Source: a virus
Virus record (IMG/VR): IMGVR_UViG_3300042884_001788
Coordinates: 1 to 20,063 of that record
Length of the DNA stretch: 20,063 nt
Strand: one strand, 5' to 3'
Shown here piece by piece: positions 3,188 to 19,269 of this stretch. The position numbers were made by a program, and so were the translations under genes. Within the stretch, counting starts at the first letter, position 1; every line of letters starts with the position of its first letter. The notes beneath the pieces are model-generated. The model did no database searches. It saw only the letters and a program-made list of their open reading frames with translations, and was not told the DNA's origin.

Positions 3188-3192
3188 GTCAA
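3188..3192 (-). promoter_or_regulatory. TTGAC box of tape measure gene
   Basis: TTGAC (GTCAA on the plus strand) begins 19 nt before the tape-measure ATG and is followed by TCCACTCCCGGCGC. It is one of nine such boxes before phage gene starts in this window. Confidence 0.6.
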
Positions 3193-3265
3193 CCCGGACA
3201 AAGAGCCTTCGTTCCGCGTTGCATCATTCTAGCTGATTTCTGACGCCCGGAAAACAGAGGTCCTG

Positions 3266-3916
3266 TTACTCTGGGTCTTGCGCATCCATAACCGACTCAC
3301 TCTTGTGCCAAATCTCGAGCCATTCCACGTTGTCCCACATGCTTTCCGGCTGCAAGTGCATCGGAAGCGAAATCCCGGAACTAGAGTGGAGAATCTCAGT
3401 GGCTTCTTCATCAGGCGAGGAAAGCCCCAGCAGAGACACACCGCACCGAGAGGCCAAAGCTTCTGCCGCAATAGTGCTGACATCATTTAAGCCGTTTAAC
3501 GACAACTCTCCACCGCCATGCCGTCCAAGAGCCTTGGCCACCTCATCACTGATGCGCTCCAACCCATCAAGACAGAGATCCCCATTATGTGCTGTCAACG
3601 CCTCTGCAGCTTTGGTGCTGAGGTTATCTAGGCCTCTCAGGTCGAGGCCGCACTCGCATGCGGCTAGAATTTCCGCTGCATCTGTATCCAGATCGATGAA
3701 CTCGCTGAGGTCCACGGATTCGGGATTCTCCAAGAACCGCCGCGCCACATCCGCGTCAAGGCGACGCCCAACAGTGATGATGGCTGCCTGTCTGCGGTCT
3801 GTGATTTCCCGAATGATACGGCTGGCAATCGCCAATCTCAGGTCCATTCGGCGAACCAATGCTCCGGGGTCCCCGGCTCCCGGTTGCAGGCTTGATGACG
3901 GTTCTGGCGAGCTCAT
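3266..3916 (-). CDS. Repeat protein with LRR-like 22-24-residue units
   Basis: The start is placed at ATG 3916 (MSSPEPSS), 10 bp after the J-domain gene. The longer open frame would overlap that gene. The product has 216 residues. Residues about 68-181 hold five degenerate repeats of the form L-x-L-x-G-L-x-x-L-S-x-x-A-A-E-A-L-A-x-x-x-G, for example LDLRGLDNLSTKAAEALTAH and LSLNGLNDVSTIAAEALA. From memory, this repeat is common in Planctomycetes and Verrucomicrobia and resembles a leucine-rich repeat fold, which usually binds proteins. There is no signal peptide, so it is probably cytoplasmic. It probably shares a transcript with the J-domain gene. It does not belong to any known phage tail family and is treated as a passenger. 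The function is unknown. Confidence 0.75.
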   Translation of the reverse strand: MSSPEPSSSLQPGAGDPGALVRRMDLRLAIASRIIREITDRRQAAIITVGRRLDADVARRFLENPESVDLSEFIDLDTDAAEILAACECGLDLRGLDNLSTKAAEALTAHNGDLCLDGLERISDEVAKALGRHGGGELSLNGLNDVSTIAAEALASRCGVSLLGLSSPDEEATEILHSSSGISLPMHLQPESMWDNVEWLEIWHKSESVMDAQDPE

Positions 3917-3926
3917 CTGCTGGTTG

Positions 3927-4856
3927 TCACAATTTTGATGACAGTGCCGAGATTTCTTCGTCAAGTACAGCGGCCTGCCGCTCAAAGAAGTCGGCGTAGT
4001 CTCCACAGGTGGTCATGATCCGGTAGGTTTCCGATTCCTTCAAGGCGCTCAACGCGCGGCTGGCACGGGCCATGGCCTCACGGATTGCCGCGATCCTTGC
4101 CCTGAGTTGCGCGCCGCGGCCGACGCCGACGGAGCTTTCCGTGGCAAACCCTGTGACTGCCTGGTCCGCAAGCGCCCGAAGCCGGCTCAAATCCCCTTCC
4201 TCGTATGCCTTGCGGACCTCGCGGAACATGGCCGCTGCCGCCTCCTCCTGACCCGGCTTGGCAAGGTCAGGATGGCACCTGCGGGACGCTGACCGGAAAA
4301 GGTTTCTCATTTCCTGCTGTTCCTCGGCGCTGAGTTTCCATTCGGTTCTCGCGTCTTCCTTCCGCCGGGTCTCGTTGTCTTGTGTGAACTCCCGGAATTC
4401 TTCCTCGGCGGCCCGCATTTCTTCAGCGGCTTCTGGATCGGCCCGGATCCGGCGCTTGAGAACATCCAACCGCATCCTCAGAATGGTGGCGATGCGGTCG
4501 CCGAGAGCTGCGGCATGGGCTGCATGGAACCGAGCCATCTGGTGCTCAAGTTCTGCCTGTTCTGTTTCCAGGTCGGCAAGCTCGGCAGTGACGCGCGTCA
4601 GTTCGGCTTCCAGCAAAGCTACTTCCGGATCGGTCCACTCCGCGAGTCTCACTCCGGAACTGAGAAGATCGCCAATCAGTTGATCCGCCTCGGTGTAGCG
4701 GTGGGCGGCCAGAGCATCAAGAATGGCCCCGAGAGCAGGTTCGCTGCGCATCGGCTCAAGTCTCATGGCGGCCACGGAAACCAGATCAATGTCGCCTAGA
4801 GCGAGCAGAGACCTTATCGCAGCAAGCCGGTTGGTCAGATCAGGCGTGAGATTCAA
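3927..4856 (-). CDS. J-domain protein with coiled-coil N-terminal part
   Basis: This 309-residue product is read from a TTG start at 4856. No in-frame ATG lies upstream before a stop at 4874-4872, and the first internal Met is residue 31. Residues about 80-165 are Glu/Ala/Arg-rich and look like a coiled coil. Residues about 178-235 match a J domain, with the diagnostic HPD at 195-197 (SRRCHPDLAK) followed by MFREVRKAYEEGD. J domains recruit and stimulate the ATPase of DnaK-type chaperones. The G/F and zinc-finger regions of DnaJ are missing, so this is a J-protein rather than DnaJ. It lies between the tail chaperone and tape measure genes with the repeat protein 10 bp downstream. It could be a host-derived passenger or a phage co-chaperone. 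I lean to the former. Confidence 0.8.
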   Translation of the reverse strand: MNLTPDLTNRLAAIRSLLALGDIDLVSVAAMRLEPMRSEPALGAILDALAAHRYTEADQLIGDLLSSGVRLAEWTDPEVALLEAELTRVTAELADLETEQAELEHQMARFHAAHAAALGDRIATILRMRLDVLKRRIRADPEAAEEMRAAEEEFREFTQDNETRRKEDARTEWKLSAEEQQEMRNLFRSASRRCHPDLAKPGQEEAAAAMFREVRKAYEEGDLSRLRALADQAVTGFATESSVGVGRGAQLRARIAAIREAMARASRALSALKESETYRIMTTCGDYADFFERQAAVLDEEISALSSKL

Positions 4857-4872
4857 TGCAAATTTAATCCGT

Positions 4873-4892
4873 CATGAGCCGACAGTCGTCAA
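4873..4892 (-). promoter_or_regulatory. Orphan TTGAC box with three-codon stub ORF
   Basis: TTGAC (4892-4888) contains the stop codon of the T frame and is followed 17 nt later by ATG (4875-4873), which opens only ATG ACG GAT TAA. The pattern resembles the starts of other phage genes but leads into the J-domain passenger rather than a phage gene. It may be a leftover gene start or chance. Confidence 0.35.
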
Positions 4893-5131
4893 GTGCCAGC
4901 CCTGCTCCACTTCTCGCGAAGCAGCCTGATGAACTGGGACGGAGCATTGCCGGTGCTGCCTGTGAACGTCCATGCCGTCCGCACCCCGTTCCTCCTCAGC
5001 AGGCAATGCTGGTACTGCGCCAGTCTCGCCAGCGGAATGAAGAGGATCCTCTCCTCGGGCCATCCTGTTTCGGCGGCGATGGCGAACACCTGCGCGGCTA
5101 GGTAGCCCGGCTCGTCGCAGGGGCCGGCATC
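4889..5131 (-). CDS. Tail assembly chaperone T part, made as G-T fusion by -1 frameshift
   Basis: This is an 80-residue extension with no convincing start of its own (only a GTG at 5089). Read from the slip site it begins DAGPCDEPGYLAAQVFAIAA and continues ETGWPEERILFIPLARLAQY, the pattern of the lambda GpT part of tail assembly chaperones. Slippage at 5131-5137 joins 129 residues of G to these 80, giving a fusion of about 209 residues. In lambda, G and GT coat the tape measure and bring in tail tube subunits, and the ratio is set by frameshift frequency. The frame ends in a TGA that is part of a TTGAC box. In a standard phage the tape measure would follow directly. Here two passenger genes intervene. 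Confidence 0.8.
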   Translation of the reverse strand, partial: DAGPCDEPGYLAAQVFAIAAETGWPEERILFIPLARLAQYQHCLLRRNGVRTAWTFTGSTGNAPSQFIRLLREKWSRAGT

Positions 5132-5517
5132 TTTCCCGGCAGTCCCCCGACCGGATCCACCTGTGCCGCCTCCAGTTCACGGCTCTGTTCCTCAAGACGA
5201 CGGAAGGCCGTCTGGAAGTCCGCCGGAGCCAGCACCCCGCAGAACAGAAGCGCCGCTTCCCGGAATGTCTGAAGATCGAAGGATGTCCGCACCACATCCG
5301 GCCACGGGGCACAGTGGGCGTAGACGAATCCCATGAGGGAACCGGTGAACTCGGGCGTGCCTTCTGCCGGCATTTCCCCCTTCACGAGGGGGTTGCCGGT
5401 GCGCAGGAGCACGTCGTAGCTCGCGAGGGAAAGGGGGCGCATGACGTGCCCGCCCACGATGGTTTCCACATCATGGAAGGCGGCGGAGAGGAGACTGCTG
5501 CGGTCGGCGTCGTTCAT
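5098..5517 (-). CDS. Tail assembly chaperone, G-like
   Basis: This product of 139 residues starts at ATG 5517, 12 bp after the previous gene's stop. It is mostly helical, with SFDLQTFREAALLFCGVLA and RRLEEQSRELEAAQ. Its position between the tail tube and tape measure matches the lambda G gene. The last codons overlap the T frame in the -1 register, and a lambda-type slippery heptamer lies ten codons before the stop. The protein is expected to bind the tape measure during tail assembly and to be absent from the finished tail. The family match rests on position and frameshift architecture more than on residue identity. Confidence 0.75.
   Translation of the reverse strand: MNDADRSSLLSAAFHDVETIVGGHVMRPLSLASYDVLLRTGNPLVKGEMPAEGTPEFTGSLMGFVYAHCAPWPDVVRTSFDLQTFREAALLFCGVLAPADFQTAFRRLEEQSRELEAAQVDPVGGLPGKMPAPATSRAT
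5131..5137 (-). other. Programmed -1 frameshift site G GGA AAG
   Basis: The minus strand reads GGGAAAG, phased in the G frame as G GGA AAG. This is the same heptamer in the same phase as the known lambda G/GT slip site. A shift to GGG AAA leads straight into the 80-codon T frame. The GC-rich downstream sequence could slow ribosomes, but I did not establish a pseudoknot. Confidence 0.85.
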
Positions 5518-5529
5518 GGCAGGAAATGG

Positions 5530-5931
5530 TCAGAGGCGGCGGAGGATGAAGTCCTCGGCCTGAGGAGTGGCATCGAGGGGGAGGAAGGCGATGCGTCCCC
5601 GTCGGCGGATGCAGGCCAGCGGAACGTCGGTGCGCAGCTTCTCCTCCAGCCGTTCCCGGTTCAGGAGGGCGCACTTGATGTAGGCGAACGGATGCTCCGG
5701 GTTGGCGAGGTGCCATGCGTCGTCGTGCCATGCCGCGATGAGGTCCTTCGTGAGCAGGCTTCCGTCGTGGCTGCGCGGCTCGAAGAACCAGATCATGCGA
5801 CCGGGACCGGCAGTGTTGTCCACCACGCGGACGAAAGGCTTCTCGGCCAGCGGGATGCTCACAGCGCAGAGGGCCGCGGCGAGCATGGTGTTGCCCGTGG
5901 AGGTGGAGGAAAGGTGGGAGACGGCGTTCAT
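5530..5931 (-). CDS. Unknown tail-module protein
   Basis: This product of 133 residues starts at ATG 5931, 10 bp after the tail tube stop. It is followed 12 bp later by the G-like gene, so the four tail genes form a compact unit. It has an aliphatic N-terminal stretch (MLAAALCAVSIPLAEKPFV), then polar segments with DNTAGPGRMIWFFEP and AAWHDDAWHLANPEHPFAYI. There is no signal peptide and no catalytic motif that I recognise. The N-terminal hydrophobic stretch is too broken by Pro and Glu to call a membrane segment. Lambda has no gene in this exact slot apart from V. It could be a tail accessory protein specific to this lineage. No function is assigned. Confidence 0.7.
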   Translation of the reverse strand: MNAVSHLSSTSTGNTMLAAALCAVSIPLAEKPFVRVVDNTAGPGRMIWFFEPRSHDGSLLTKDLIAAWHDDAWHLANPEHPFAYIKCALLNRERLEEKLRTDVPLACIRRRGRIAFLPLDATPQAEDFILRRL

Positions 5932-5941
5932 GGGAGATCGG

Positions 5942-6322
5942 TCATGGCAGGGCCACGGTCACGTTCGGGTAGTGGGTGGCGGTGAGGTCGATCTTCTCGA
6001 AGTCCTCGTTGTTCATGGAGCGGCTCAGCTGGGTGAGGATGGTTGTGCCGCCCGTGGTCTTCTGGAGGTGGGCCGGGATGGCGTTGGCGAGCACGAGGGC
6101 GGCGCTGATCTTGCCGGTGAACGGGGACGTCTTGCTCACGAGTCCGGAGAGCTTCACCTCCACCTTCTCCTGGTAGAAGGAGAGGCCGATGACCTCGCCG
6201 CCCTTGTCGAGGACCTGCTTCTCCTGGCTGGAGAAGTCGAAGGAGAGGTCGGTGATGAGCAGGCCGGTCTGGTCGCTCGGGATGCCGAAGTTGCCGGTGG
6301 TTCCAAGAAGTGATGCTGGCAT
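5942..6322 (-). CDS. Major tail tube protein (probable)
   Basis: This product of 126 residues starts at ATG 6322, 22 nt after the start of a TTGAC box. It is beta-rich and hydrophilic, with alternating segments such as LLITDLSFDFSSQEKQVLD, VIGLSFYQEKVEVKLSGLV and DLTATHYPNVTVALP, as expected of a small tube protein. The N-terminal strand plus the phrase beginning QEKQVLDKGGEVIG resembles tube proteins whose first residues are a loop of the ring. It lies between the terminator and the chaperone genes, which is the usual place for the tube gene. The tube forms stacked hexamers around the tape measure. The assignment is by position and composition; an unknown structural protein is the alternative. 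Confidence 0.6.
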   Translation of the reverse strand: MPASLLGTTGNFGIPSDQTGLLITDLSFDFSSQEKQVLDKGGEVIGLSFYQEKVEVKLSGLVSKTSPFTGKISAALVLANAIPAHLQKTTGGTTILTQLSRSMNNEDFEKIDLTATHYPNVTVALP

Positions 6323-6339
6323 TTGCCGCCGGACGGGGT

Positions 6340-6344
6340 GTCAA
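6340..6344 (-). promoter_or_regulatory. TTGAC box of tail tube gene
   Basis: TTGACAC begins 22 nt before the tube ATG and is followed by CCCGTCCGGCGGCAA. Its TGA is also the stop codon of the tail terminator gene. Confidence 0.6.
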
Positions 6345-6766
6345 CCGGCGGATACGACCGCCTCGAAGGAAAGAGTGGTTTCCCGCCCGCGAGTCTCATC
6401 GGGGACGGTGGATGTTTCCCGGGCAATCAGGTCGTGGAGGAGGAAGCTGTCCGAAGCGAGTTCCGCCCGGATGGAATCGGTATCCCGGAGCATGGCCTCC
6501 AGAGCGGCAGCAGTCGACGCATGGACGGCTGCGGGCGTGTCGTCGGTCTGGCTGAAAAGGTGGACGTCGAGCTTCATCCGGCAGGTTCCCGGCATGGCGG
6601 AGACGGAGCGTGCCTCGGAGGTTTCCAGCACGATGCAGGGACGGGTGCGCAGATCATCCCGGGAAGCGGCAAGGATGGGCACCAATACCGGGATGACCGG
6701 CGGGCGATTGTCGGTGATCCACTGGACAAGGAGGGAAACGAGGGCGTCTTCGGCGAGCTGGGACAT
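6341..6766 (-). CDS. Tail terminator protein (probable)
   Basis: The start is placed at ATG 6766 (MSQLAEDALVSLLVQWITDN), giving 141 residues. A TTG 21 nt upstream is in frame but is the first codon of a TTGAC box. The N-terminal helix, then VIPVLVPILAASRDDLRTRPCIVLETSE and a beta strand with CRMKLDVHLFSQTDDTPAAVHA, fit tail terminators (GpU or gp17-like), which cap the tail tube and join it to the head. The gene ends inside the TTGAC box of the tube gene. Upstream, the expected neighbour (gp10-like) is separated by a plus-strand passenger. Family assignment is by pattern and position. Confidence 0.65.
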   Translation of the reverse strand: MSQLAEDALVSLLVQWITDNRPPVIPVLVPILAASRDDLRTRPCIVLETSEARSVSAMPGTCRMKLDVHLFSQTDDTPAAVHASTAAALEAMLRDTDSIRAELASDSFLLHDLIARETSTVPDETRGRETTLSFEAVVSAG

Positions 6767-6782
6767 GCACCCGGACGGCAGA

Positions 6783-6787
6783 GTCAA
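6783..6787 (-). promoter_or_regulatory. TTGAC box of tail terminator gene
   Basis: TTGACTC begins 21 nt before the ATG at 6766 and is followed by TGCCGTCCGGGTGC. It helps to choose this ATG over the in-frame TTG inside the box. Confidence 0.6.
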
Positions 6788-6803
6788 CCGCAGCTGGGAT
6801 GGA

Positions 6804-6832
6804 TTGCAGGGCTCTCAATGATTTGCTATGAT
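6804..6832 (+). promoter_or_regulatory. Candidate promoter for the plus-strand passenger
   Basis: TTGCAG (6804-6809) and TATGAT (6827-6832) are 17 bp apart. The -10 matches the sigma-70 consensus at five of six bases, and the -35 at only three. It would start transcription about 55 bp before the ATG at 6893, which a lone gene opposite to its neighbours would need. Confidence 0.4.
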
Positions 6833-6892
6833 CTCGACAGAAAGGCGGTTCCCAACGGGGATCTGTAGACACACTAGGACCTTGAAAGAACG

Positions 6893-7309
6893 ATGAAGAT
6901 TCAAACATATCATAGATCCAGCAAAACCATCACCGCTCCTGAGTGCAGCTCCAATCTGAAGCTCGTTTTCAGATGCTGGGTCTGTAAGGCTATAGGCTGT
7001 GACGACGAGCTTGTCGATTTTTACTGTGGCCCCAGTGAAGACGGTGATTTCGTAGCCCTGTGGCTTGTAAGTAATTTCGACCCACCGGAAAGCCTAGTTC
7101 CTCAAGCTGTCGCTTGGACACGAAATGGAAACCTCCCGGCCTACCACTGGGCTCAGCTGTTAAAAGGGTACTGGTCTGCAGAAAGAGATCACAATGATTG
7201 TGAGGAACCAAACTGCTCCAAGGTCGAACATATAGAAGGTTCGCTCATGAGCCCTGACGAGGTCGAGCAGGTTGCATTATCGGTTTGGCCGGACTTGAAG
7301 CACCTATGA
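6893..7309 (+). CDS. Unknown protein, lone plus-strand passenger
   Basis: This 138-residue product is not recognised. It starts at ATG 6893 (MKIQTYHRSSKTI). It has six cysteines, including CWVCKAIGC and a later CEEPNCSK, so metal binding is possible but no classic zinc finger is present. The acidic and tryptophan-rich middle (DFVALWLVSNFDPPE, RNGNLPAYHWAQLLKGYW) suggests a small soluble domain. There is no signal peptide. It is the only plus-strand gene within the head-tail block, and its base composition looks less GC-rich than its neighbours. Its stop is only 3 bp from the stop of the convergent gp10-like gene. It splits the tail completion and tail terminator genes, which are normally adjacent, so it is likely an acquired passenger. 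Confidence 0.7.
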   Translation: MKIQTYHRSSKTITAPECSSNLKLVFRCWVCKAIGCDDELVDFYCGPSEDGDFVALWLVSNFDPPESLVPQAVAWTRNGNLPAYHWAQLLKGYWSAERDHNDCEEPNCSKVEHIEGSLMSPDEVEQVALSVWPDLKHL

Positions 7310-7312
7310 TAT

Positions 7313-8101
7313 TTAGACCGCCTGCCTGCGGAGTCCCAGCTGTGCCCGCTGCTGAACCGCCCGCAGCGACGTGGCCAGAGCCAGACGCAGTCGCCCGGCT
7401 GCCGCATTGAGCGCCATCCTGATCCCGGAGGCTGTCGCCATTTCCTCCATGTAGTCCAGACGGCTCACTAGAGTCACCGCGGGGCGGTCGCCTGTCTTCA
7501 CCCTCGCTGTGCCTGGTGCCTGCCGGTGCCGGGTCGCCCACTGCGCAGCGTTCCGCACCCGCCCGCCGATTGCCTTCGCCGCATTGATCCACACCCCCTT
7601 GGCAAAGCCCACCCGGCGCTGGATCCTCGCGGTATAGGTCTCCAGTGCCCGGCGGCTGGTGACGACCTGTGCGGGCCGGCTGCGCTTCACCTTTCCATTC
7701 TGCCGGCTGGTGCGGTGGCGGTCCGGCTCCAGTCGCCCCACGGGGAGGTCCGCCCATGCCGAGGACGATCCGGCCAGTGCCTTCCGGGCGCGGGCAAAGC
7801 GGCGGTTCTGCACGTGTGCCCAGAATCTGTCGGCTGACTGCGGATCGGTGCGCTGGAGCTGCTCGTATGCCTGATCGGGAGTCGCGAAGACCTTCCCAAT
7901 GTCCTTCGCCACGGCTCCTTCGCCCGCCTTCCTTGCACGGGCGGAAAACCCGAACGGCCGGGTGGTGCGTGCCAGTTCCACAGCCAGTCCGCGTGCTTCC
8001 TGCTTCACGAGAGAGAGCATGGTGCGCCCGATGCGCTGCGGGAACCGGGCCAGCAGAGCGATCACCTCGGCATCCCCCTTGAGCCGTGTCCGGAAGGTCA
8101 T
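7313..8101 (-). CDS. gp10/Z-like tail completion or head-tail connector protein
   Basis: This product of 262 residues starts at ATG 8101, which overlaps the adaptor stop as ATGA, so translation is probably coupled. The N-terminal part (MTFRTRLKGDAEVIALLARF then MLSLVKQEARGLAVELAR) follows the usual plan of HK97 gp10-like and lambda Z-like proteins: a strand, a helix about keeping residues apart, then basic helices. The rest is very Arg/Lys/Ala-rich, long for the family, with GFAKGVWINAAKAIGGRVRNA and a C-terminal helix. It would act at the tail end that meets the head. The C terminus lies 3 bp from a convergent passenger and could have been altered by that insertion. Confidence 0.6.
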   Translation of the reverse strand: MTFRTRLKGDAEVIALLARFPQRIGRTMLSLVKQEARGLAVELARTTRPFGFSARARKAGEGAVAKDIGKVFATPDQAYEQLQRTDPQSADRFWAHVQNRRFARARKALAGSSSAWADLPVGRLEPDRHRTSRQNGKVKRSRPAQVVTSRRALETYTARIQRRVGFAKGVWINAAKAIGGRVRNAAQWATRHRQAPGTARVKTGDRPAVTLVSRLDYMEEMATASGIRMALNAAAGRLRLALATSLRAVQQRAQLGLRRQAV

Positions 8102-8409
8102 TCGTCCGGAGTGGTGAGCACGAGCGTGAGGAGCGGCGAGCGCGGGTGGCTGCTCACCCGGCTGATGCGGTAGACTTCTCCGTCCACCGTGATCCGCTGC
8201 CCGTACTGGGGGACGGGTCCGGAGAAAGCAGTGCGTGGCACCCTGATGGTGAGATCTGGGGACTCCACGTAGCCGCCGACGGCGATGCCGCTCTCGGTAC
8301 CGATACGGCTGGCCAGCACGATCAGGTCGGTATTCTGCCAGCGGGCCGGGACGCCATGCTCGCTCAGCAGTTCGGCAAGGTCGGCGAGGATTTCTGATTC
8401 AGGACTCAT
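8098..8409 (-). CDS. Head-tail adaptor/stopper protein (probable)
   Basis: This product of 103 residues starts at ATG 8409. It begins with a helix (ESEILADLAELLSEHG), then beta strands, with PQYGQRITVDGEVYRISRVS and SPLLTLVLTTPDE. The phrase on a value set by the user-like strand pair VDGEVYRI is typical of small head-completion proteins of the FII/gp16 kind, which sit below the portal and bind the tail. It is followed by the gp10-like gene with a four-base overlap and preceded by a terminator-like hairpin and a TTGAC box, so it may start a new expression unit for the connector and tail genes. Confidence 0.6.
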   Translation of the reverse strand: MSPESEILADLAELLSEHGVPARWQNTDLIVLASRIGTESGIAVGGYVESPDLTIRVPRTAFSGPVPQYGQRITVDGEVYRISRVSSHPRSPLLTLVLTTPDE

Positions 8410-8423
8410 GCCGGGCTTCCCGT

Positions 8424-8428
8424 GTCAA
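8424..8428 (-). promoter_or_regulatory. TTGAC box of head-tail adaptor gene
   Basis: TTGACACGGG begins 19 nt before the ATG and is followed by AAGCCCGGC, so CGGG and CCCG can pair. It sits right after a terminator-like hairpin. Confidence 0.6.
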
Positions 8429-8461
8429 AGAAGCACCCCCTCCCGGTTTCCCGGAAGGGGG
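8427..8461 (-). terminator. Rho-independent terminator-like hairpin
   Basis: On the minus strand CCCCCTTCCGG, a GAAA loop and CCGGGAGGGGG form an 11-bp stem with one T-G pair, followed by TGCTTCTTT. The tail is only partly T-rich, so termination may be incomplete. It would separate capsid genes from the connector genes. The hairpin itself is 8436-8461. Confidence 0.6.
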
Positions 8462-8517
8462 CTGGTTTCCTCACACCACCCCCGTGCCACTCACACGGGG
8501 AAGTCTTTTTCCTGCGC

Positions 8518-9033
8518 TCACGAGTACTCGCCGGCCACGAGATTGACCCGGCAGGCCGCAGTTCCGTCCACCTCGATGAGCCCCGGACCCTCGTTCACCA
8601 CGAAGACAGTCGGCGCATTGACCTCCTTGGTCGCCGCCCCCACGGGAATCTGGGCAGCGGAACTCATGAGGTGGACAGTGTCGCCCGGAGCCAGCGCAAG
8701 GCCCGTGTTGGCCGTGAGCGTGATCGTTCCGGCACCCGCATTGACCGAGGCGACCACGGCACGGACACCCGTTCCGGTCACAAGGGAGAAGAGCACGAGA
8801 ACATCTCCCGCAGCGGCTCCCGGGTAGGGTGGCGCATTGACGACAGTCTGGTTGGCGGCTCCCGCGGCGGTGACCGTGGTGGAACGGACCGGAGCCCGGA
8901 AGATCAGCAGCGAGGCCGCCTTGTCGGAGGTGGCGCTCGCGTACTGGACCCGGATGCGGTCGCGTCCACCGGCGGGAACGACGGCGTGGCTGAGCGTGGT
9001 GCCGGCATTGCCGGTGAAGCTGAATGGAGTCAT
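8518..9033 (-). CDS. Capsid-associated structural protein (decoration candidate)
   Basis: This product of 171 residues starts at ATG 9033, 9 bp after the capsid stop. It is rich in Ala, Gly, Val and Thr with repeated beta-strand patterns (FSFTGNAGTTLSHAVVPAGG, GAGTITLTANTGLALAPGD, PTVFVVNEGPGLIEVDGTA), and has one cysteine and no long helices. Such composition and place fit a protein that binds the outside of the shell, like a decoration or head fibre protein. Lambda places its decoration gene D before the capsid gene, so the order differs. I recognise no family. A terminator-like hairpin lies about 60 bp downstream, so its transcript probably ends with the capsid genes. Confidence 0.6.
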   Translation of the reverse strand: MTPFSFTGNAGTTLSHAVVPAGGRDRIRVQYASATSDKAASLLIFRAPVRSTTVTAAGAANQTVVNAPPYPGAAAGDVLVLFSLVTGTGVRAVVASVNAGAGTITLTANTGLALAPGDTVHLMSSAAQIPVGAATKEVNAPTVFVVNEGPGLIEVDGTAACRVNLVAGEYS

Positions 9034-9042
9034 GGTCGTGGA

Positions 9043-9939: not shown

Positions 9940-9945
9940 GGGAGG

Positions 9946-10398: not shown

Positions 10399-11220
10399 GG
10401 CCCGGGAACCCGTGTCAACTGCGGCGTGGTAGACGCGGAGCCTGCGCATGGCTTCGGCGCGGTCGGGCACCATGCCGGCGAGATTGACCCGCTGTGCCTG
10501 CCTGCCGCTGAAGGTCTGTCCCTCCATGGCCTCGGCTGGAATGGCACGGCCCCGGGAGAGGACGGCTGCGTGGAACTCGCGTGCCGTATCGTCAAGGTTG
10601 GCAAGGATGAGTCCCCGCTGGTCGTCGGTGAGGGGAGTGCCCGGTGCCCCCATGGCCTTGTACTTGCCGACCGAGAACACCTCGATCTTCAGGCCCGCTG
10701 CTTCCATGGCCGCGGAATCATCAAGGACGGCTTGAACAACGCCGATGGATCCGACCTGAGCCGATGGAGTGGCGTAGATGGCGCGGGCCTGACTGGCGAT
10801 CCAGTAGGCGGCAGATGCCATGAGGCCGGAGGAGAACGCATAGACCGGCTTGATGGCATCGAGAGAACGGACGGCTGCGGCCAGTTCCGGAGTGCCAGCC
10901 ACGGTGCCGCCCGGAGAATCGATGTCCAGGAAGACAGCCCGGATGTCATCGCGCCCGCCTGCTTCGCTGACCGCCGCTGCGATCTCACCCGAATCGACCG
11001 CCCCCATGATGGCACGGGCAAACAGGTCCGGCTTGCGCATGATGGGGCCATTGATGGCGATCACCCCGATGCCGTTCTCGACGGACAGCTGCTGGCTCGG
11101 GGAAGACCCTGCCGGTAGTCTGCCCGGTCGGCTCTGGAAGAGGCGGACAGTGGCGGCGAGCGACTGGAGCGCTTCGGGCTGGATCAGCCATTCACGGCTC
11201 TGGAGAAGGAGCGGGTTCAC
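9946..11220 (-). CDS. Prohead protease, S49 family, with C-terminal scaffold domain
   Basis: The product has 424 residues and starts at GTG 11220, 19 nt after a TTGAC box. The protease part has DSPGGTVAG at 101-109 and the nucleophile region SGLMASAAYWIA with Ser136. It also has GKYKAMG around 185-191, where Lys186 or Lys188 would be the general base, and VGSIGVV in between. These are features of SppA-type S49 peptidases, such as lambda protein C. From residue 275 the protein is a helical, Glu/Ala/Arg-rich scaffold-like domain. This matches the lambda C/Nu3 arrangement, in which the protease carries the scaffold at its C terminus and degrades it during maturation. The original portal 3' end overlapped this start. 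Confidence 0.9.
   Translation of the reverse strand: MNPLLLQSREWLIQPEALQSLAATVRLFQSRPGRLPAGSSPSQQLSVENGIGVIAINGPIMRKPDLFARAIMGAVDSGEIAAAVSEAGGRDDIRAVFLDIDSPGGTVAGTPELAAAVRSLDAIKPVYAFSSGLMASAAYWIASQARAIYATPSAQVGSIGVVQAVLDDSAAMEAAGLKIEVFSVGKYKAMGAPGTPLTDDQRGLILANLDDTAREFHAAVLSRGRAIPAEAMEGQTFSGRQAQRVNLAGMVPDRAEAMRRLRVYHAAVDTGSRAMSTTLEDQLAEARTALEALQRDHTAQGDLLAESAVTADTLRGELALATADVSTLRGERDAARAEANSLRDRITALEASQTDFDTRVRTEAARIAASTGTQDPARITPAGEGTQNAELRAQFAAITDPAAQTAFWRSLTPAQQAALLSNQA
10414..10418 (-). promoter_or_regulatory. TTGAC box of nested scaffold
   Basis: TTGACACGGG begins 20 nt before the internal ATG 10398 and is followed by TTCCCGGGCC, which can pair. In the protease frame it reads V-D-T-G-S-R. 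Confidence 0.65.
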
Positions 11221-11234
11221 GTCCCGGCCGGGGT

Positions 11235-11239
11235 GTCAA
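11235..11239 (-). promoter_or_regulatory. TTGAC box of prohead protease gene
   Basis: TTGACAC begins 19 nt before the GTG at 11220 and is followed by CCCGGCCGGGAC, a perfect 10-bp palindrome CCCGGCCGGG. It lies inside the leftover portal 3' end. Confidence 0.6.
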
Positions 11240-11243
11240 CGCA

Positions 11244-11260
11244 GCCGGCTTCCAGAGCAT
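11244..11260. repeat. 17-bp direct repeat, copy 1
   Basis: GCCGGCTTCCAGAGCAT is identical to 13066-13082. It encodes MLWKP on the minus strand in the leftover portal tail. The two copies flank the FGE-fold gene. Confidence 0.85.
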
Positions 11261-11267
11261 ACAGCGA

Positions 11268-12956
11268 TCAGCGCCGGGTAACTCTCAGTCTTACGAACCG
11301 ACGCTCAATCGCCGAGCTGGCTGGAGTTGTCACCAGCACCCTCTGGCGAACACCATCGTCGCTGATGATGGTTTCGGCGGTTCCGCCTGTCTGCTGCCAT
11401 GGACCTGATGGGCTTGCGGCGAACTCGCGGACGAAAGTCAGCTCTGACGCCGCCGACTTGGATCTCCAGTAACGGTACTCGAGCACGCTGCCGTTCTTCA
11501 CAATCTCGGCCTGACCCTCTGTAGGACGATTCGGGTCGGTACCAAAGGCAAACTCTACCATGTTGACCTGGTCGTCTCCGTCAGGATCCGAGGAGTCGCT
11601 GCCAGCACCGGAATTCGCTATGGAACCAAAATTCATGAGTCGCCACTTTTCGCTCTCTGTTGGTATCTTTCCCTGAAGCTGGATGGTCAGCTGTTGTGTG
11701 ACTGGCGCAGCGGATTGAAGAACCATGCTGGCGGCACGCAACCCTCCTGCGGATGGATTGAACCGTAGTTCCATTTGGGCTTCGGATCCTGATTCGATGG
11801 TCTCTGGCAATCCTGTGACAATCTCGAAATCCGAGGCCATCGGACCTTGTATGGCGGTCGTGACTCCACGCAGAGCATCAAGACCTGGATTCCGGATTGT
11901 AATGCGCCTGGTTGGCTGCTCACTTAGGAAAATCGGGAGCGACCCTCCATCAGTCACCTCGGTTCCGTTGTCCAAAACAACAACCATTACTGGTGAAGGA
12001 GCACCGGCTACCCGGAATCCTATCAACTGATAATCGCCGTACTGAAGTGGGCCACCCCAAGAAGAGATAAGGTGCCCCGAACCACCGCCTAGCACGTACG
12101 CCCAATGCCCTCCTCGGAGGGAACGAGAACCATCAATTCCGACCCACTCAGCCACGTTTCCGGCCATGTCATTCATACCATAATAGCTCCTAGATGCTTC
12201 GCCGTATGCTCCCACATCGGTTAATCGGCCCAGCAACCCATTCTCATCTTGTGCATAGTTTCCATCGAAGAAGTTTACCCCTCCTGGCTGCGTGAAGCTG
12301 TTGCCCGGAACTGAGTTGCTGCGGTTCGCATGGAGCCAATAGCCGCCCGATCCTCCGAACTGCGTCGGATCGAAGTATGCGGCTTTGGACCATTCGTCTT
12401 CCGAGGGAATCCACACTGTAGCACCCACTCGCTTTGGAATAAGTGGCGGGGATATGCCCGATCCTGGCGCTGGCATGGTAACGCCGCCTAGCGAATATGC
12501 GCCAATTTCTACCGACTGCATCCCAGCATCACCTGTTTTCTGACCGTTGTGGAGCCAATTGCAGAATCTGGCAGCATCATAGATGCTGACAAATGTCACC
12601 GGAATTTTCCCATTTCCGATTACCGAGTACTCGTACCTTTCGGCAAGCTGCTTTCGCGCAATCCCACCGCCACCCCCGCTATGGTTGATGCCCTCGTCGT
12701 AAAGTCCAAACCTATCATCAATCGAAGCCGTTGCATTCAGAAATTCAACGTATTGTGAAATAGTGATCTCGTTTCTCGACATCTGATAGGTGTACGCAAC
12801 AGATCCACCCGGAGTCCCGCCGCTTCCATCCATTGAGTTCGCGGGACTCCTCGCTGGGTTGCCCGGATTGCCTATCGTCACCCAGTCGATTGCAACCGTG
12901 GCCCCAGCTGAAACCGACAGCAGCGACAGGATGAACGGAATGATGACTCGCCTCAT
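11268..12956 (-). CDS. Secreted FGE/SUMF1-fold protein with SPD-2-like and Verrucomicrobia-type tail
   Basis: This product of 562 residues starts at ATG 12956 with a signal peptide (RRVIIPFILSLLSVSAGA). Residues about 20-318 have the formylglycine-generating enzyme (FGE-sulfatase, C-type lectin-like) fold. Motifs are IPSEDEWSKAA at 183-193, GMNDMAGNVAEWV at 260-272 and GFRVAGA from 313. The paired cysteines used by FGE for catalysis are missing: the only cysteine is Cys132, so this is likely a binding or structural module. A choice-of-anchor/SPD-2-hydin-like beta domain follows (about 320-430). Next come WRLMNFG, a DPDGD motif at 457-461 and a last domain ending RRFVRLRVTRR. This layout is typical, from memory, of Verrucomicrobia surface proteins. 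It interrupts the portal-protease pair and looks like a host-type passenger. Confidence 0.85.
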   Translation of the reverse strand: MRRVIIPFILSLLSVSAGATVAIDWVTIGNPGNPARSPANSMDGSGGTPGGSVAYTYQMSRNEITISQYVEFLNATASIDDRFGLYDEGINHSGGGGGIARKQLAERYEYSVIGNGKIPVTFVSIYDAARFCNWLHNGQKTGDAGMQSVEIGAYSLGGVTMPAPGSGISPPLIPKRVGATVWIPSEDEWSKAAYFDPTQFGGSGGYWLHANRSNSVPGNSFTQPGGVNFFDGNYAQDENGLLGRLTDVGAYGEASRSYYGMNDMAGNVAEWVGIDGSRSLRGGHWAYVLGGGSGHLISSWGGPLQYGDYQLIGFRVAGAPSPVMVVVLDNGTEVTDGGSLPIFLSEQPTRRITIRNPGLDALRGVTTAIQGPMASDFEIVTGLPETIESGSEAQMELRFNPSAGGLRAASMVLQSAAPVTQQLTIQLQGKIPTESEKWRLMNFGSIANSGAGSDSSDPDGDDQVNMVEFAFGTDPNRPTEGQAEIVKNGSVLEYRYWRSKSAASELTFVREFAASPSGPWQQTGGTAETIISDDGVRQRVLVTTPASSAIERRFVRLRVTRR

Positions 12957-13009
12957 GTTTTTACGTTTAGAAACTTTACGAAGGCAATTTCCTCACCCGG
13001 TTCATCCGT

Positions 13010-13014
13010 GTCAA
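13010..13014 (-). promoter_or_regulatory. TTGAC box after portal, with ATG 9 nt on
   Basis: TTGACACGG here contains the portal stop codon and is followed at 9 nt by ATGAACCGGGTGAGG. The latter resembles the start of the protease gene (GTGAACCCGCTCC) but runs into a stop after eight codons. It may be the start of a protease copy left from recombination. Confidence 0.4.
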
Positions 13015-14450: not shown

Positions 14451-14707
14451 TTCGGCAGGTGACCGCAGATGAAGGAGGCTCCGGCGATGCGGGCGCGTCC
14501 GTAGGTGTCGGGATCAAGGACGCGGAGGGCGTGGGCGCATTCCTCCAGCACGTCGGTGACCGGCATGGTGAACTGCTTGGCAACGGACGTCTCGGCATCG
14601 TTCCAGTTCATGATGGTCTTGCCCTCAAGGACGAGCGCTTTGGCCCGATGCTGGATGGCAAGCACCTCGCCGACGGTGAAGCCGGTGATGAAGAGACCGC
14701 GGGCCAT
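14447..14707 (-). CDS. GpW-like head-tail joining protein
   Basis: The start at ATG 14707 (MARGLFITGFTVGEVLAIQHR) lies 2 bp after the M15 stop. The open frame upstream is the shadow of that gene. The product has 86 residues: an N-terminal helix, then LVLEGKTIMNWNDAETSVAKQF, where a strand pair is followed by a helix (PVTDVLEECAHALRVLDP) and a basic end. Length, order and place between large terminase and portal fit lambda W, a small protein that lets tails attach to filled heads. Similarity is mostly in the LxxGKxxxxWxDxxTSVxKQF pattern. The gene's last bases overlap the portal ATG, so translation is likely coupled. Confidence 0.6.
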   Translation of the reverse strand: MARGLFITGFTVGEVLAIQHRAKALVLEGKTIMNWNDAETSVAKQFTMPVTDVLEECAHALRVLDPDTYGRARIAGASFICGHLPK

Positions 14708-14709
14708 GC

Positions 14710-15150
14710 TCAGCGTCCCTTCCAGGTGGCGTTGCTGCCGCGGCTGTCGATGTGGACGAACCCGGCTCCCGGATAGAGCCCCAGCCCGCCGGTGAACTTG
14801 CCCTGTGCCCGCCACGCCACGAGCTTCTCGAAGACGAGCTTCGGCGGGATCCCGTCGAAGGCGATGTCCAGGGCGCGGAACTCCATGTGCTGGCTCGCGC
14901 TCACGCCACCCACGGCCCGGTTGTAGGCAGGGGAGCGGTAGGAACTGAGGATGGTGCAGGGACGGCCGAGGACTCCGCGCAGGTCATCGACGATGCGGAG
15001 GGCAGGTTCGATGTTCTTCCAGAGCGCCTTCGGGGGCACGCTGTTCTTCACCCCCTTGCGGACGGCACCGAAGTAGGAAGTGAACTCGCCCGCGGAGAAG
15101 TGGCGGAACCTGCGGGAATCAAACCACTGGGAAAAGGCATCGCTGCTCAT
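14710..15150 (-). CDS. M15-type zinc peptidase (endolysin-like)
   Basis: This product of 146 residues starts at ATG 15150, overlapping the large terminase stop. It has the layout of Peptidase_M15_3: an N-terminal FSAGEFTS like the RHFS/xxEF start of this family, ILSSYRSPAYNRAVGGVSAS with SQH at 86-88, ALDI with Asp95, and FVHIDSRG with His133. His88, Asp95 and His133 would bind zinc. The family includes enzymes that cleave peptide bridges in cell wall. There is no signal peptide. It lies between the terminase and GpW genes, whereas lysis genes usually sit elsewhere, so it could act in entry or as a virion-linked lysin. A TTGAC box precedes its start. Confidence 0.85.
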   Translation of the reverse strand: MSSDAFSQWFDSRRFRHFSAGEFTSYFGAVRKGVKNSVPPKALWKNIEPALRIVDDLRGVLGRPCTILSSYRSPAYNRAVGGVSASQHMEFRALDIAFDGIPPKLVFEKLVAWRAQGKFTGGLGLYPGAGFVHIDSRGSNATWKGR

Positions 15151-16964
15151 GATTCCCCGCTGCCCGTGTCAACGGAGGCATCCTCGACCGCCTCCCGGCC
15201 CACGATCTTGAGCATGGTGGCCGCGGCTGCCTGCATGGCCTCGCAGTCGAAGTAGTGATTGGGGCGGGCACCGATCTGCTCCCAGATCCACTTGCCGTTC
15301 CTCCTGACCCGGCGCTCGCTTTCCATCTGGGCGAGGTATTCCTCTCCGGCGTCGTCGGGCACTTCCCACGTGGGCCCGGCAGACGGGTCCTGATTGCGGC
15401 GCAGGCGGGCCAGCGTGTCCTTGATGTTGAGGTTCGACCAGTAGAACACCGAGCAGGACTGTCCCCGGCCGAGCACGACCCGGCGGCGCGGCGAGTAGAA
15501 CCGCTCGACGGACTTCCGTCCCTTCATGCTGTGGGTAAAGGTGGCCCGCTTGTCCCCCATGAGGGCAGTCCAGCCGCGGGAGGCGCATTCCCGGTACACG
15601 TCGTAGGTGGCGTGGCCGGCATCGGTGAAGACGAGATTGGGATGCACGCCGAAGCGTTCCTGCACGGCGGCCACGTCGGCGAAGGTGTGGGTGCGCTCGT
15701 GCCAGATGAGGCGGCTTGATCCATCCGCGCCCCATGCCCGCACGACGAGGTAGAGGTGGTCGCGCTGGCAGTCCACGGTCACGATGCGCAGCGGGCAGAC
15801 GGACGGCACGCCGGGAGCCGCCACCCGGCCCGAAGCGTCCACGCCGCCCTCGCCGTCCCATGTTTCCCCCAGACGGTAGCCACCGGGAGCGATTTCCATG
15901 CGGTAGTCCTCCGTGTACTCGCGCCAGGGCAGGGCCAGACGCTTCTGGATGAACTGCTGCATGAGGGTGAGGTCACCGGCCCTTGCCGCCGCACGGGCCC
16001 GCAGATGCAGTTCGGCAAGGCGGCCCCAGCTCATGGCGCAGAGGGCATTCCAGTGGAACCCGGCGTTTTCGCGCGGTGCGTTCGGGTTGGTGACCACGTA
16101 GGCCCCGGTGAGATTGAGTTCGCGGCGCGTGCGGTCGCTGTCCGGGAAGGCGTGGCGGCACGAGGCGCAGAGCATCACGGCAGTGTCCCGGACGATGCGG
16201 TAGTCCCACTGGCCGGTTTCATCGCGGGCATCGCGGCTCCATTCCACATTCTCCCAGAGGAAGGGCTGGCGGTGGCCGCACTGAGGGCAGGCAAAGGTCC
16301 ACTCGCGCATGTCGGTCGATTCGAAGCGGCGGTGGGTGTCGTCGTCCTCCTCGCCGCCCTGACTCATGAAGAGGCACTTGCCGAGCCACCCGAAGGCGGT
16401 GACGCGCGCCTCGGCCTCCGCCATGTGACCGGGTGGCCAGCGCCACGTTTCGTCCCCGATGAGCCAGCGGATCGAGCGGCGCTGCAGGTTCGTCCGGTTG
16501 TGGGCCCCGAGCACCCAGAGCGTCATGCCATTGGCGAAGTGGATGGTGGCCACGCGCTTCTTGTGCCGGTTGGCAGGGTAGAGGGCACGCACGGGGGCGC
16601 ATTCGTCGAAGAGCTTCTGGAGGCGGCTCTCGCTCTGGTCCTTGGCGTCGTCGTCGGTCTGGTCGAGCCAGAGCGTGGGTCCCGGGTGGTTGGCGATGAT
16701 GTGGGCAAGGCCCAGCTCGCCGACGCTCGTCTTCCCGCTCTGGATCGCCGCCATGATCGAGATGATCCTGATCTTCGGATCGGCCAGTGCCTCCATGGGT
16801 TCCCTCATCCAGGGGGAATTGGCGGAGCGGAAGCGGCCCGGGACAGGGGAATACGGGATGGACGGGATGTGTTCCTCGCACCACGCCCACGGGGGACGCC
16901 GGTCGGGGGGACGCCATGCCTGCCGCCAGATTTCCGTGAGGATGCCGTGTGCCGTGCTGCTCAC
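15147..16964 (-). CDS. terL: Terminase large subunit, GpA type
   Basis: The start at GTG 16964 overlaps the small terminase stop (GTGA) and gives 605 residues, close to lambda gpA (641). The N-terminal ATPase has a P-loop-like AAIQSGKTS at 72-80 and a Walker B-like IRWLIGDE at 165-172. Two CxxC pairs (Cys226/229 and Cys266/269) form the zinc ribbon that marks this family. The C-terminal nuclease part includes VFTDAGHATYDVYRECASRG, ALMGDK and SNLNIKDTLARLRR. The enzyme pulls DNA into the prohead and cuts it. The end of the gene carries the TTGAC box of the next gene, read in frame as VDTG. Confidence 0.95.
   Translation of the reverse strand: MSSTAHGILTEIWRQAWRPPDRRPPWAWCEEHIPSIPYSPVPGRFRSANSPWMREPMEALADPKIRIISIMAAIQSGKTSVGELGLAHIIANHPGPTLWLDQTDDDAKDQSESRLQKLFDECAPVRALYPANRHKKRVATIHFANGMTLWVLGAHNRTNLQRRSIRWLIGDETWRWPPGHMAEAEARVTAFGWLGKCLFMSQGGEEDDDTHRRFESTDMREWTFACPQCGHRQPFLWENVEWSRDARDETGQWDYRIVRDTAVMLCASCRHAFPDSDRTRRELNLTGAYVVTNPNAPRENAGFHWNALCAMSWGRLAELHLRARAAARAGDLTLMQQFIQKRLALPWREYTEDYRMEIAPGGYRLGETWDGEGGVDASGRVAAPGVPSVCPLRIVTVDCQRDHLYLVVRAWGADGSSRLIWHERTHTFADVAAVQERFGVHPNLVFTDAGHATYDVYRECASRGWTALMGDKRATFTHSMKGRKSVERFYSPRRRVVLGRGQSCSVFYWSNLNIKDTLARLRRNQDPSAGPTWEVPDDAGEEYLAQMESERRVRRNGKWIWEQIGARPNHYFDCEAMQAAAATMLKIVGREAVEDASVDTGSGES
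15168..15172 (-). promoter_or_regulatory. TTGAC box of M15 peptidase gene
   Basis: TTGACACGGG begins 22 nt before ATG 15150 and is followed by CAGCGGGGAATC. It lies within the end of the large terminase coding sequence. Confidence 0.6.
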
Positions 16965-17563
16965 TGCGCTGCGTGGAGAATGCCCAGAACTTCGTCGATG
17001 GCCCGGCCGGCTTCCTCCTGGATGCCCGTGGCGTCGAGACCCGAGAGGATGGGCGGGAGTTCCTGCTCGAACTTGCGCCGGAGCATGGCAGCGGCCTGAG
17101 CCACGAGTTCGGTCCACTTCTGGCGCACGTCTGCCACGGCCACGTAGTCGCCGCGGCGGATGCCCAGCCGGAGTTCGCGTTCCTCGACCTCGGCAAGGAG
17201 CTTGCGTGCCTTGAGGGCGGATTCCATGTCGGCGTCACCGGCTGGCTGCTCACCGCCCTTCAGATCGTGACGGCGCATGAACTCGCGCCATGCCGCCACC
17301 TCATGGAGACCGTTGGAGGCCGGCTTTGGAGCGTCCTTGCGTTTCTTCCATACGTGGAGCGTCTGGCGGGTGACCCCGAGCACGACGCCCAGTTCGACGT
17401 AGGAGGAGACGGTGGCCGGATCTCTGCCTGCGCCCGCCGCCATGGACTGGAGCATGGCACGCTCAGTCCTTGTGAGCTTACCGCCCTTCTGCACGCGGCC
17501 GACCAGATTGGCGAAGTCGCGTGAGAGGAGCTTTCTGGCAATGTCTGGCGGCACCTGTTCCAT
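16961..17563 (-). CDS. terS: Terminase small subunit
   Basis: The start at ATG 17563 (MEQVPPDIARKLLSRDF) gives 200 residues and is 21 nt after a TTGAC box. The frame remains open upstream but with no phage-like sequence. A helix-turn-helix lies in VELGVVLGVTRQTLHVWKKR, as in Nu1-type small terminases that bind the packaging site. After it come basic helices and a coiled segment (ARKLLAEVEERELRLGI), and the C-terminal end (EEAGRAIDEVLGILHAAQ) would bind the large subunit. The next gene overlaps its stop, as in lambda-like terminase pairs. Order, the HTH and length support the call. Confidence 0.9.
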   Translation of the reverse strand: MEQVPPDIARKLLSRDFANLVGRVQKGGKLTRTERAMLQSMAAGAGRDPATVSSYVELGVVLGVTRQTLHVWKKRKDAPKPASNGLHEVAAWREFMRRHDLKGGEQPAGDADMESALKARKLLAEVEERELRLGIRRGDYVAVADVRQKWTELVAQAAAMLRRKFEQELPPILSGLDATGIQEEAGRAIDEVLGILHAAQ

Positions 17564-17869
17564 CAGGGACCGCGGCGGCGTCAACTCTATCGCTGCTGGA
17601 CTTCCGTGTCTCGCCGATGCGGTACTCGCACTCAATTCACTGCCAAACGTCGCAGCGATGAGGCTCACCTTTCCTGCACAACGCACCGATTCAGTATAGG
17701 AATCGCCGCCATCTTTTTCCTGTCGTCAAATTCGAATCTCCGCACTAAATTGCGCATCGCGATTCAATAATCCCCAGTATGAAGCCCGATCGCACGCAGA
17801 TCACTTTGCGCGCCTGTTACCAACCCCGACTCTCAACTCGGCACCATTCCGCAAAACAGCCATGAAACG
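17564..17869. other. Divergent intergenic region (306 bp)
   Basis: No gene was seen here. It would hold the promoters for the small terminase (minus) and the passenger gene (plus). It is less GC-rich than the phage genes. Two 8-bp palindromes lie near each other: ATTCGAAT at 17730-17737 and ATCGCGAT at 17756-17763. A TTGAC box on the minus strand (17725-17729) is 17 nt before an ATG (17712) that opens 15 codons and stops. A TATACT on the minus strand lies nearby, but no -35 is at the right distance. No convincing sigma-70 promoter was found for the plus-strand gene. Confidence 0.5.
17580..17584 (-). promoter_or_regulatory. TTGAC box of small terminase gene
   Basis: TTGACGC begins 21 nt before ATG 17563 and is followed by CGCCGCGGTCCCTG, with an internal CCGCGG palindrome. 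It is the first box of the minus-strand structural block. Confidence 0.6.
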
Positions 17870-19204
17870 ATGCCGGCCTCTGATTCTCCGAACGCCAACC
17901 CAGACCCACTTCAAATTTCCACAATGATCACCACTGAGAACACGGAACTCATCATAAATCATGATGACGACACCGCATGGATCAAGACCCGAATTGACAA
18001 GCGGGCAGACGCCTATGTCTCCGAATGGCTCCCGCGAATCCTATCTGAAAACCTAAGCCATGGTTTGGAAAAACTACTGACGAAAGAGTTCTCATGGATG
18101 GGCGCGGAACAGAAAGCGCACGCACGCCGAGCTGTTTCAGAGGCCCCGCCTGAGCGTGTAGAAGCCAGGCTAAGGCAGATTGTCGATCAAAGGGTCATCG
18201 CGTCTGCAAACACACATGTCCCTCCAACAGCGCGCATCAGCTTCCAGCGCACACTGCGCATTCCCGATGATGGCAGGACCTACCCGTTACCTCCAGGTAT
18301 GGGGGAATTACCTGTCAGGAAAATGGAGCCGCATGCGGAAAAACTTCCGGCTGCATGGCGCACTTTGGGTGGGGTGCTGGTGCCTATGTATCAATCAGAA
18401 GCAATGTGGCTGCATTTCAGCAGCCGTTGGCCGACGGCCCTAAAGATCGGTACTGGAACCGTGAACGCAATCAGCGGTGCCTCCTGGTCCCATGGGCTAC
18501 CTAGCAACCCGCAGGGGTATGTTGTGCTACCCGAGCAGCCTTGGTTGGATGGGTTTTGTGTAGGGCCTGGAATTGTTAGACAATTTATCGCAGCTCGCCT
18601 TGGCGATGGCTACAGCGTAGAGGAACAGGTCAGCGGAACAACTCGAGGAGGTCTGCAAATCGAGGCTTTTCCTCTGCTGCCAGAACCATATTTCGACAAA
18701 AAAATACGGGACACCCTCCCGAGGACCGCCGAAGAACTTGCAAAAGATTACCTCAGCAGGACTTTCCGGAAGCCATTTGACGGAGGCGACATTTCTTTTT
18801 CACTTTCGGCAATGGGTTTGGGAGGTGGGGGTCGCATAAAACAGGAAATCTTCAAAGATCAGTGGGAGCCTGCCGATTGGGATCTTTCACGCCCTTCCCG
18901 GGTTTGGGTGCATCTTGTCGAGGCTACAGTCTGGAAGGCATTGACCGGACGAGCCCCGTTTTCCAAGCCCATAGGCGCTCAGGAATATGCAGCCGCCGGC
19001 CTACCTTGGTTCGAATATTACCGCGATGACATGGATGCCGTAGAGGGTTCCGCAATCCTAGCGCAACTGCAATCTGTCTTCGCGCTTGCTCAGCAGCGAG
19101 AAGACCCGGCCATTCCTATCGAACCTTCCCCTGAAAACCTTCAGGTGAAGCCCTTAGGCCCTGACGCGCCTTCCAACACTGTCACTGAGTGGAACGGATA
19201 CTGA
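17870..19204 (+). CDS. Conserved uncharacterised protein, passenger
   Basis: This product of 444 residues starts at ATG 17870; an internal ATG at 17924 (MITTENTELI) is also possible. The N-terminal half has charged helices (residues 40-110) and is variable. A central block, about 126-270, has the phrases RTLRIPDDGRTYPLPPGMG, MYQSEAMWLHF and YVVLPEQPWLDGF, plus RQFIAARLGDGYSVEEQ and GGLQIEAF. From memory, this block occurs in a family of unknown function spread over many bacteria, often with no phage link. There is no signal peptide and no membrane segment. It lies between the small terminase and the ParB-like gene. No TTGAC box precedes it, so I treat it as a passenger. No function is proposed. 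Confidence 0.75.
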   Translation: MPASDSPNANPDPLQISTMITTENTELIINHDDDTAWIKTRIDKRADAYVSEWLPRILSENLSHGLEKLLTKEFSWMGAEQKAHARRAVSEAPPERVEARLRQIVDQRVIASANTHVPPTARISFQRTLRIPDDGRTYPLPPGMGELPVRKMEPHAEKLPAAWRTLGGVLVPMYQSEAMWLHFSSRWPTALKIGTGTVNAISGASWSHGLPSNPQGYVVLPEQPWLDGFCVGPGIVRQFIAARLGDGYSVEEQVSGTTRGGLQIEAFPLLPEPYFDKKIRDTLPRTAEELAKDYLSRTFRKPFDGGDISFSLSAMGLGGGGRIKQEIFKDQWEPADWDLSRPSRVWVHLVEATVWKALTGRAPFSKPIGAQEYAAAGLPWFEYYRDDMDAVEGSAILAQLQSVFALAQQREDPAIPIEPSPENLQVKPLGPDAPSNTVTEWNGY

Positions 19205-19264
19205 CTCGAGTTTGATTCCTTCCGTCGGATCATTACTGACTGAAACCCTTCCCAAAACCGGAAG

Positions 19265-19269
19265 TTGAC
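19265..19269 (+). promoter_or_regulatory. TTGAC box of ParB-like gene
   Basis: TTGACCGGG begins 19 nt before ATG 19284 and is followed by ATCTCCCGGC, so CCGGGA and TCCCGG form a 6-bp inverted repeat around TC. It is the only box of this kind found before a plus-strand gene here. Confidence 0.65.

Follow-up and report, generated by a model that had tools for sequence, protein, structure and literature searches.

A GTTGAC box 19-23 nt before late-gene starts in Verrucomicrobia phages, candidate core of a leaderless late promoter

In Deinococcus-Thermus and Actinobacteria, a TANNNT element precedes the start of leaderless genes by about 10-12 bp (PMC3160421, PMC12340547). The late phage genes described here are similar in that a promoter-type motif lies close to the start at a constant distance, a Shine-Dalgarno sequence is missing and the coding start is unstructured, but the motif 19-23 bp before them is TTGAC, with no -10-like element. 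Late promoters of jumbo phages, AACA-6N-TA/G in AR9 and TATG in phiKZ, depend on a multisubunit RNA polymerase of the phage (PMC5312081). These are likewise minimal phage-specific motifs placed before many separate late genes, some of them within open reading frames; however, the motif is a different one, and no phage multisubunit RNA polymerase was noticed in the one 44-kb relative inspected. The stoperators of Cluster A mycobacteriophages, 13-mers in L5, are asymmetric and act as oriented repressor sites (PMC9283540, PMC6550527); the boxes are also numerous, asymmetric, oriented with transcription and found in short intergenic gaps, whereas stoperators are not described as measured to start codons. 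Moreover, the -35 core of the sigma-70 promoter, TTGACA, matches the box TTGAC[A/G], but the box is nearer to the start by 17 nt than a -35 should be, and a TATAAT-like -10 is missing about 17 bp downstream of it. Neither a TTGAC box at -20 nor leaderless late genes were described for Verrucomicrobia phages in the full texts searched, a collection largely outside subscription papers; in that literature the box is apparently an undescribed expression signal.

Position and conservation of the box

The window, a virus record of 20,063 bp (61.9% GC), makes up the late half of a lambda-like siphophage, with genes for TerS, TerL, an M15 endolysin, portal, prohead protease, major capsid protein, head-tail adaptor and tape measure, and a divergent ParB-like gene. 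The tail-terminator-like and tail-tube-like proteins had no library match, and their names come from the sequence-only reading of the original prediction. That prediction had placed TTGAC boxes before nine starts; all nine positions and distances proved correct (Table 1), as did the TTGACAC reading of five. Overall, TTGAC is about as frequent in the window as expected (34 occurrences, 32.9 expected), so that its position alone is special: about 0.07 starts would be expected to carry it in a 5-position window before 17 genes (P(>=8) ~2e-15), in agreement with the earlier claim of a placement beyond chance.

Table 1. Boxes, terminator-like hairpin and passenger genes in the window
Feature	Position	Strand	Start	Distance (nt)	Box in orthologues or remark
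Box before TerS	17580..17584	-	17563	21	69/74
Box in TerL 3' end, before M15 peptidase gene	15168..15172	-	15150	22	
Box before prohead protease	11235..11239	-	11220 (GTG)	19	67/69
Box within protease ORF, before nested in-frame scaffold start	10414..10418	-	10398	20	
Box before head-tail adaptor	8424..8428	-	8409	19	39/43, +3 in shifted alignment register
Box before tail-terminator-like gene	6783..6787	-	6766	21	37/38
Box before tail-tube-like gene	6340..6344	-	6322	22	34/34
Box before tape measure gene	3188..3192	-	3173	19	25/25
Box before ParB-like gene	19265..19269	+	19284	19	66/70; opposite strand
Second TTGACAC at portal ORF end	13008-13014 (TTGAC 13010..13014)	-			Far side of inserted passenger
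Intrinsic-terminator-like hairpin	8435..8462	-			After decoration gene, just upstream of head-tail adaptor box
Passenger gene, FGE-sulfatase/SUMF1-like	11268-12956				Inserted upstream of box-bearing late gene
Passenger gene, DnaJ-like	3927-4856				Inserted upstream of box-bearing late gene
Passenger gene, product unknown	6893-7309	+			Upstream of box-bearing late gene
Passenger gene, product unknown	17870-19204	+			Upstream of box-bearing late gene

A terminase search retrieved 209 viral relatives, of which 80 loci were kept, together with 27 genome loci; almost all come from Verrucomicrobia (Akkermansiaceae, Prosthecobacter, Chthoniobacter flavus and gut Akkermansia). A self-trained gene caller was then run on 133 related viral loci, giving 1124 distinct upstream stretches, in which TTGAC at -22..-19 was the top positional 5-mer (338 stretches, with about 5 expected). 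As the pooled starts belong to related phages and are not independent, counts were also made by gene family (Table 1); the gene after TerL carried the box in 22/22 cases. Without any gene caller, 56% of 717 distinct GTTGAC sites had an ATG 19-23 nt further on, with sharp edges, and ATG at neighbouring distances followed only 0-1.4% of the sites. The spacing is therefore strongly enriched in relatives, as predicted, and is kept by orthologues almost without exception, confirming that the box is real and far stronger than a single window could show. One family, that of the pre-portal gene, lacks the box in 26/78 orthologues, and a stop codon lies shortly before the start in 10/10 listed examples. 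A pattern scan of all viral contigs gave 28 loci, four of them with box-bearing starts, in a set where many low-GC loci yielded no gene calls. Overall, the box marks nearly every independently starting late gene in a widespread group of Verrucomicrobia phages, including prophages of Akkermansia and Chthoniobacter; one such prophage resides in the cultured Chthoniobacter flavus Ellin428, which makes the box testable.

Comparison of these sites corrected the core from TTGAC to GTTGAC[A/G]. The family-weighted site reads GTTGAC[A/G]C, followed by a GC-rich stretch with G at box position +17 (75%), 1-5 nt, and ATG or GTG; in the lower-GC Akkermansia phages it is TTTTGACA. The 12 nt preceding box starts are about 75% GC. 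Nothing was conserved upstream of the box, no -10-like element was enriched at any fixed distance from it, and TANNNT about 10 bp before the start, the criterion for leaderless genes, was absent at box genes. The original prediction had also noted GC-rich palindromes after several boxes. These do not amount to a conserved hairpin: RNAalifold gave no common fold between box and start in 12/13 family/spacing sets, and in the thirteenth, of 8 sequences, the fold was weaker than in shuffled columns. A hairpin element was therefore rejected, the palindromes following from GC composition, even though individual spacers are a little more stable than their shuffled versions. A spacer-shuffle test (z -0.56) suggests slight selection for structure.

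Selection at the box acts on nucleotides. Before the nested scaffold start in the protease reading frame, the codons GTT GAC and the ATG are each kept in 76/76 orthologues among variable flanking codons, although in these genes just 16% of valine codons are GTT; likewise, the box valine codon at the TerL C-terminus is GTT in 73/80. This synonymous codon choice rules out a protein-level constraint on Val-Asp, and with it the objection that the sites are incidental coding sequence. In the box before the tail-tube-like gene, TGA terminates the gene ahead of it, but an upstream stop codon as the cause of TGA in the box holds for 52/364 sites only. In three protease genes (L148, L149 and L152), ATT stands in place of the nested-scaffold ATG, with the spacing to GTTGAC unchanged; it may be a rare start codon, and an ATG lies 15 nt further.

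The signal belongs to phage genes, and mainly to late ones. In three host genomes, only 2/544, 1/261 and 3/275 starts carried TTGAC at the box spacing, which excludes a host-wide gene-start signal in these chromosomes and bears out the expectation of an enrichment limited to phage genes. In the phage genome G016, none of about 25 early genes has a box, and the first boxes appear at the late module; in some phages a box also precedes epimerase-like genes (G014, G015) or the integrase (G016), and each genome holds some ten. The major capsid and decoration genes are box-less and have A/C-rich leaders in relatives, so the earlier statement that box-less genes are mostly tightly coupled to their neighbours does not extend to every one of them. 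Boxes, for their part, are retained even at ATGA overlaps.

Junctions, inserts and RNA structure at box starts

In most phages in which the ParB-like gene and TerS are adjacent, their divergent starts lie only 46-68 bp apart, with two back-to-back outward boxes separated by 4-20 bp, which leaves no room for other promoters outside coding sequence. At the decoration/head-tail adaptor junction, about 30/37 loci have a terminator with a 12-13 bp GC-rich stem, a GNRA-type loop and a T-rich tail, and this strong, conserved intrinsic terminator ends 0-12 nt ahead of the head-tail adaptor box. Such a terminator before every box was looked for and found only at this junction; it could be leaky, and it likely sets capsid against tail expression.

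Inserts longer than 300 nt occur at 74/312 box junctions and at 15/463 box-less junctions, all 15 of the latter between TerS and TerL. Inserts at box junctions are mostly same-strand, some with opposite-strand genes, and relatives hold different, often lower-GC passengers at the same junctions. This distribution, almost only upstream of boxes, shows that a box and its gene form an autonomous unit. In the window, the passenger next to the portal gene is flanked by two boxes; the TTGACAC at the portal end is probably a remnant box without a late gene behind it, and the box may have served as short homology for the insertion.

Upstream of box starts, the sequence is GC-rich and as structured as bulk sequence, and it is precisely at the start codon that structure falls; the leaders of box-less genes, by contrast, are unstructured. 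With the leader present, opening the initiation region would cost 12.3 kcal/mol at box starts, as against 12.8 at internal ATGs and 6.2 at box-less starts; with the leader removed, box starts cost 2.3, equal to the 2.3 of real starts, and internal ATGs 5.4. These costs agree with the structure profile in 16 families, while single window genes scatter. The profile is of the leaderless type and supports leaderless starts, falling short of proof because, in a small set from D. radiodurans MP1, the signature failed to tell TANNNT-led genes from Shine-Dalgarno-led ones and because the spacer shuffle hints at selection for structure.

Transcriptional and translational readings of the box

The original prediction had dismissed transcription on the ground that a sigma-70 -35 so close to the start would put the beginning of the transcript after the ATG. 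This is correct for sigma-70, where transcription beginning some 35 bp beyond the -35 would, by spacing, land 12-16 nt into the open reading frame; but the divergent starts, the terminator, the insert boundaries and the starts that a leader would occlude point to a compact, non-sigma-70 start of leaderless transcripts. We give an even chance to the reading of the box as the core of a late promoter specific to the phage, with messages that begin at the start codon. The element recognised would then be GTTGAC[A/G]; counting from its first T, transcription would begin some 19-23 bp downstream, on the start codon or no more than a few bases away from it, and the late mRNAs would be leaderless and need no ribosome-binding site. 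Transcription from the start codon is favoured by the divergent starts 46-68 bp apart, by the terminator that ends at the head-tail adaptor box and by the confinement of nearly all inserts to the upstream side of boxes; the structure drop and the opening costs favour a leaderless start, and the lack of conservation upstream of the box was counted on the same side.

A core identical to the sigma-70 -35, together with an early protein that could read it, also argues for transcription from the start codon. In sigma factors, the TTGACA of -35 elements is recognised by region 4. Two conserved early proteins with a C-terminal helix-turn-helix, one of about 180-200 aa (L299:10238-10810) and another (L299:16404-16919), weakly resemble sigma-4/MarR and Sigma70_r4_2, below curated cut-offs, and are candidate late regulators. 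Fold searches with the two gave no significant match; sigma region 4 was among the best, non-significant matches of the first (best E 0.14, model pLDDT 66), which is a candidate reader of the box. In the 59 called G016 proteins, judged by eye with two scanned against Pfam, neither an RNA polymerase nor a true sigma factor was noticed; this, with the non-significant resemblance, tells against the leaderless promoter. So do the density of boxes, which stand before successive tail genes, the slight selection for spacer structure, which a sequence acting as DNA only would not need, and the missing -10-like element in about 75% GC before the start, which is unlike promoters of host RNA polymerase; we know of no promoter for a host-type RNA polymerase that lacks a -10 in DNA of 75% GC. 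It is only tentatively, then, that we propose a promoter class of its own, in which a -10-less box of 6-7 bp in about 75% GC DNA would alone fix leaderless 5' ends at the start codons of almost all independent late genes, under the direction of a phage sigma-4-like protein. If true, such a promoter would extend known transcription initiation.

Alternatively, and in our judgement possible but doubtful, the box may be a translation-initiation element in a polycistronic late mRNA, with a protein or RNA at the mRNA exit of the ribosome binding UUGAC 19-23 nt upstream and recruiting the 30S subunit or opening an occluded start. Boxes keep to a sharply bounded, 5-nt-wide range of distances from the start codon, as in Shine-Dalgarno spacing, and a box precedes the nested scaffold start inside a co-transcribed gene, two facts that this element explains equally well as the leaderless promoter does. 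It would also suit the pre-portal family, where a stop close before the start accompanies missing boxes, and a host group poor in Shine-Dalgarno sequences, as reported (PMC10783764) and as host gene starts show. The claim that box genes have no clear Shine-Dalgarno holds in that purine-rich complements of CCUCC at -5 to -13 are rare there (6%), but this is not distinctive, box-less genes being equally poor (8%). The box is not complementary to the anti-Shine-Dalgarno, and pairing elsewhere in 16S rRNA was rejected: the one complete host 16S examined lacks GTGTCAAC, and its sole GTCAA lies in a conserved internal stretch, while the assemblies of three other hosts contain no 16S. Moreover, with a leader in the mRNA the start region would be as occluded as internal ATGs, one box is abutted by a terminator, the divergent starts leave no room for promoters, and boxes persist at ATGA overlaps where coupling would suffice. 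Com of phage Mu, a translational activator with a single target, is a model for opening an occluded start, whereas the box stands before many genes; we know of no comparable multi-gene case. The original prediction had left the choice between an undescribed translation-initiation element and a dedicated regulator site. A start-linked element under nucleotide-level selection and limited to phage genes is upheld, and the leaderless promoter is preferred on account of the divergent starts, the terminator, the insert boundaries and the blocked starts. If translational, the box would be a non-Shine-Dalgarno start signal common to many genes; under either reading it offers a simple motif for locating late-gene starts and insertion boundaries in these phages.

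Two further readings are less likely than both. By analogy with the stoperators of mycobacteriophage L5, the boxes could be prophage repressor sites spread over the genome, given their asymmetry, their orientation with transcription, their short intergenic settings and their number; this is improbable, as a silencing site has no need to measure a start codon, while the boxes keep an exact 19-23 nt register to start codons, also within coding sequence, and are missing from the early genes of G016. Very improbable is RNA processing, in which a nuclease would recognise UUGAC in the late transcript and cut near the start codon to yield leaderless messages: the leaderless-type structure profile and the fixed distance fit, but terminator read-through and promoters for the divergent genes would be required, and the spacer has no conserved RNA fold.

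TTGAC also occurs before other starts at a larger distance. In the host genome G001, it is the top positional 5-mer at -39..-34, as expected for the -35 element of short-leader promoters, and 16 host genes have it 36-40 nt ahead of the start codon, which suggests a subset of short-leader or leaderless host promoters. In phage P8625 (L232), TTGACA stands exactly 36 nt, and not 20, before the starts at 5448, 10772, 15594 and 22442; the spacers at 5448 and 10772 hold an inverted repeat of the GTATC...GATAC type, and the one at 15594 holds an imperfect repeat.
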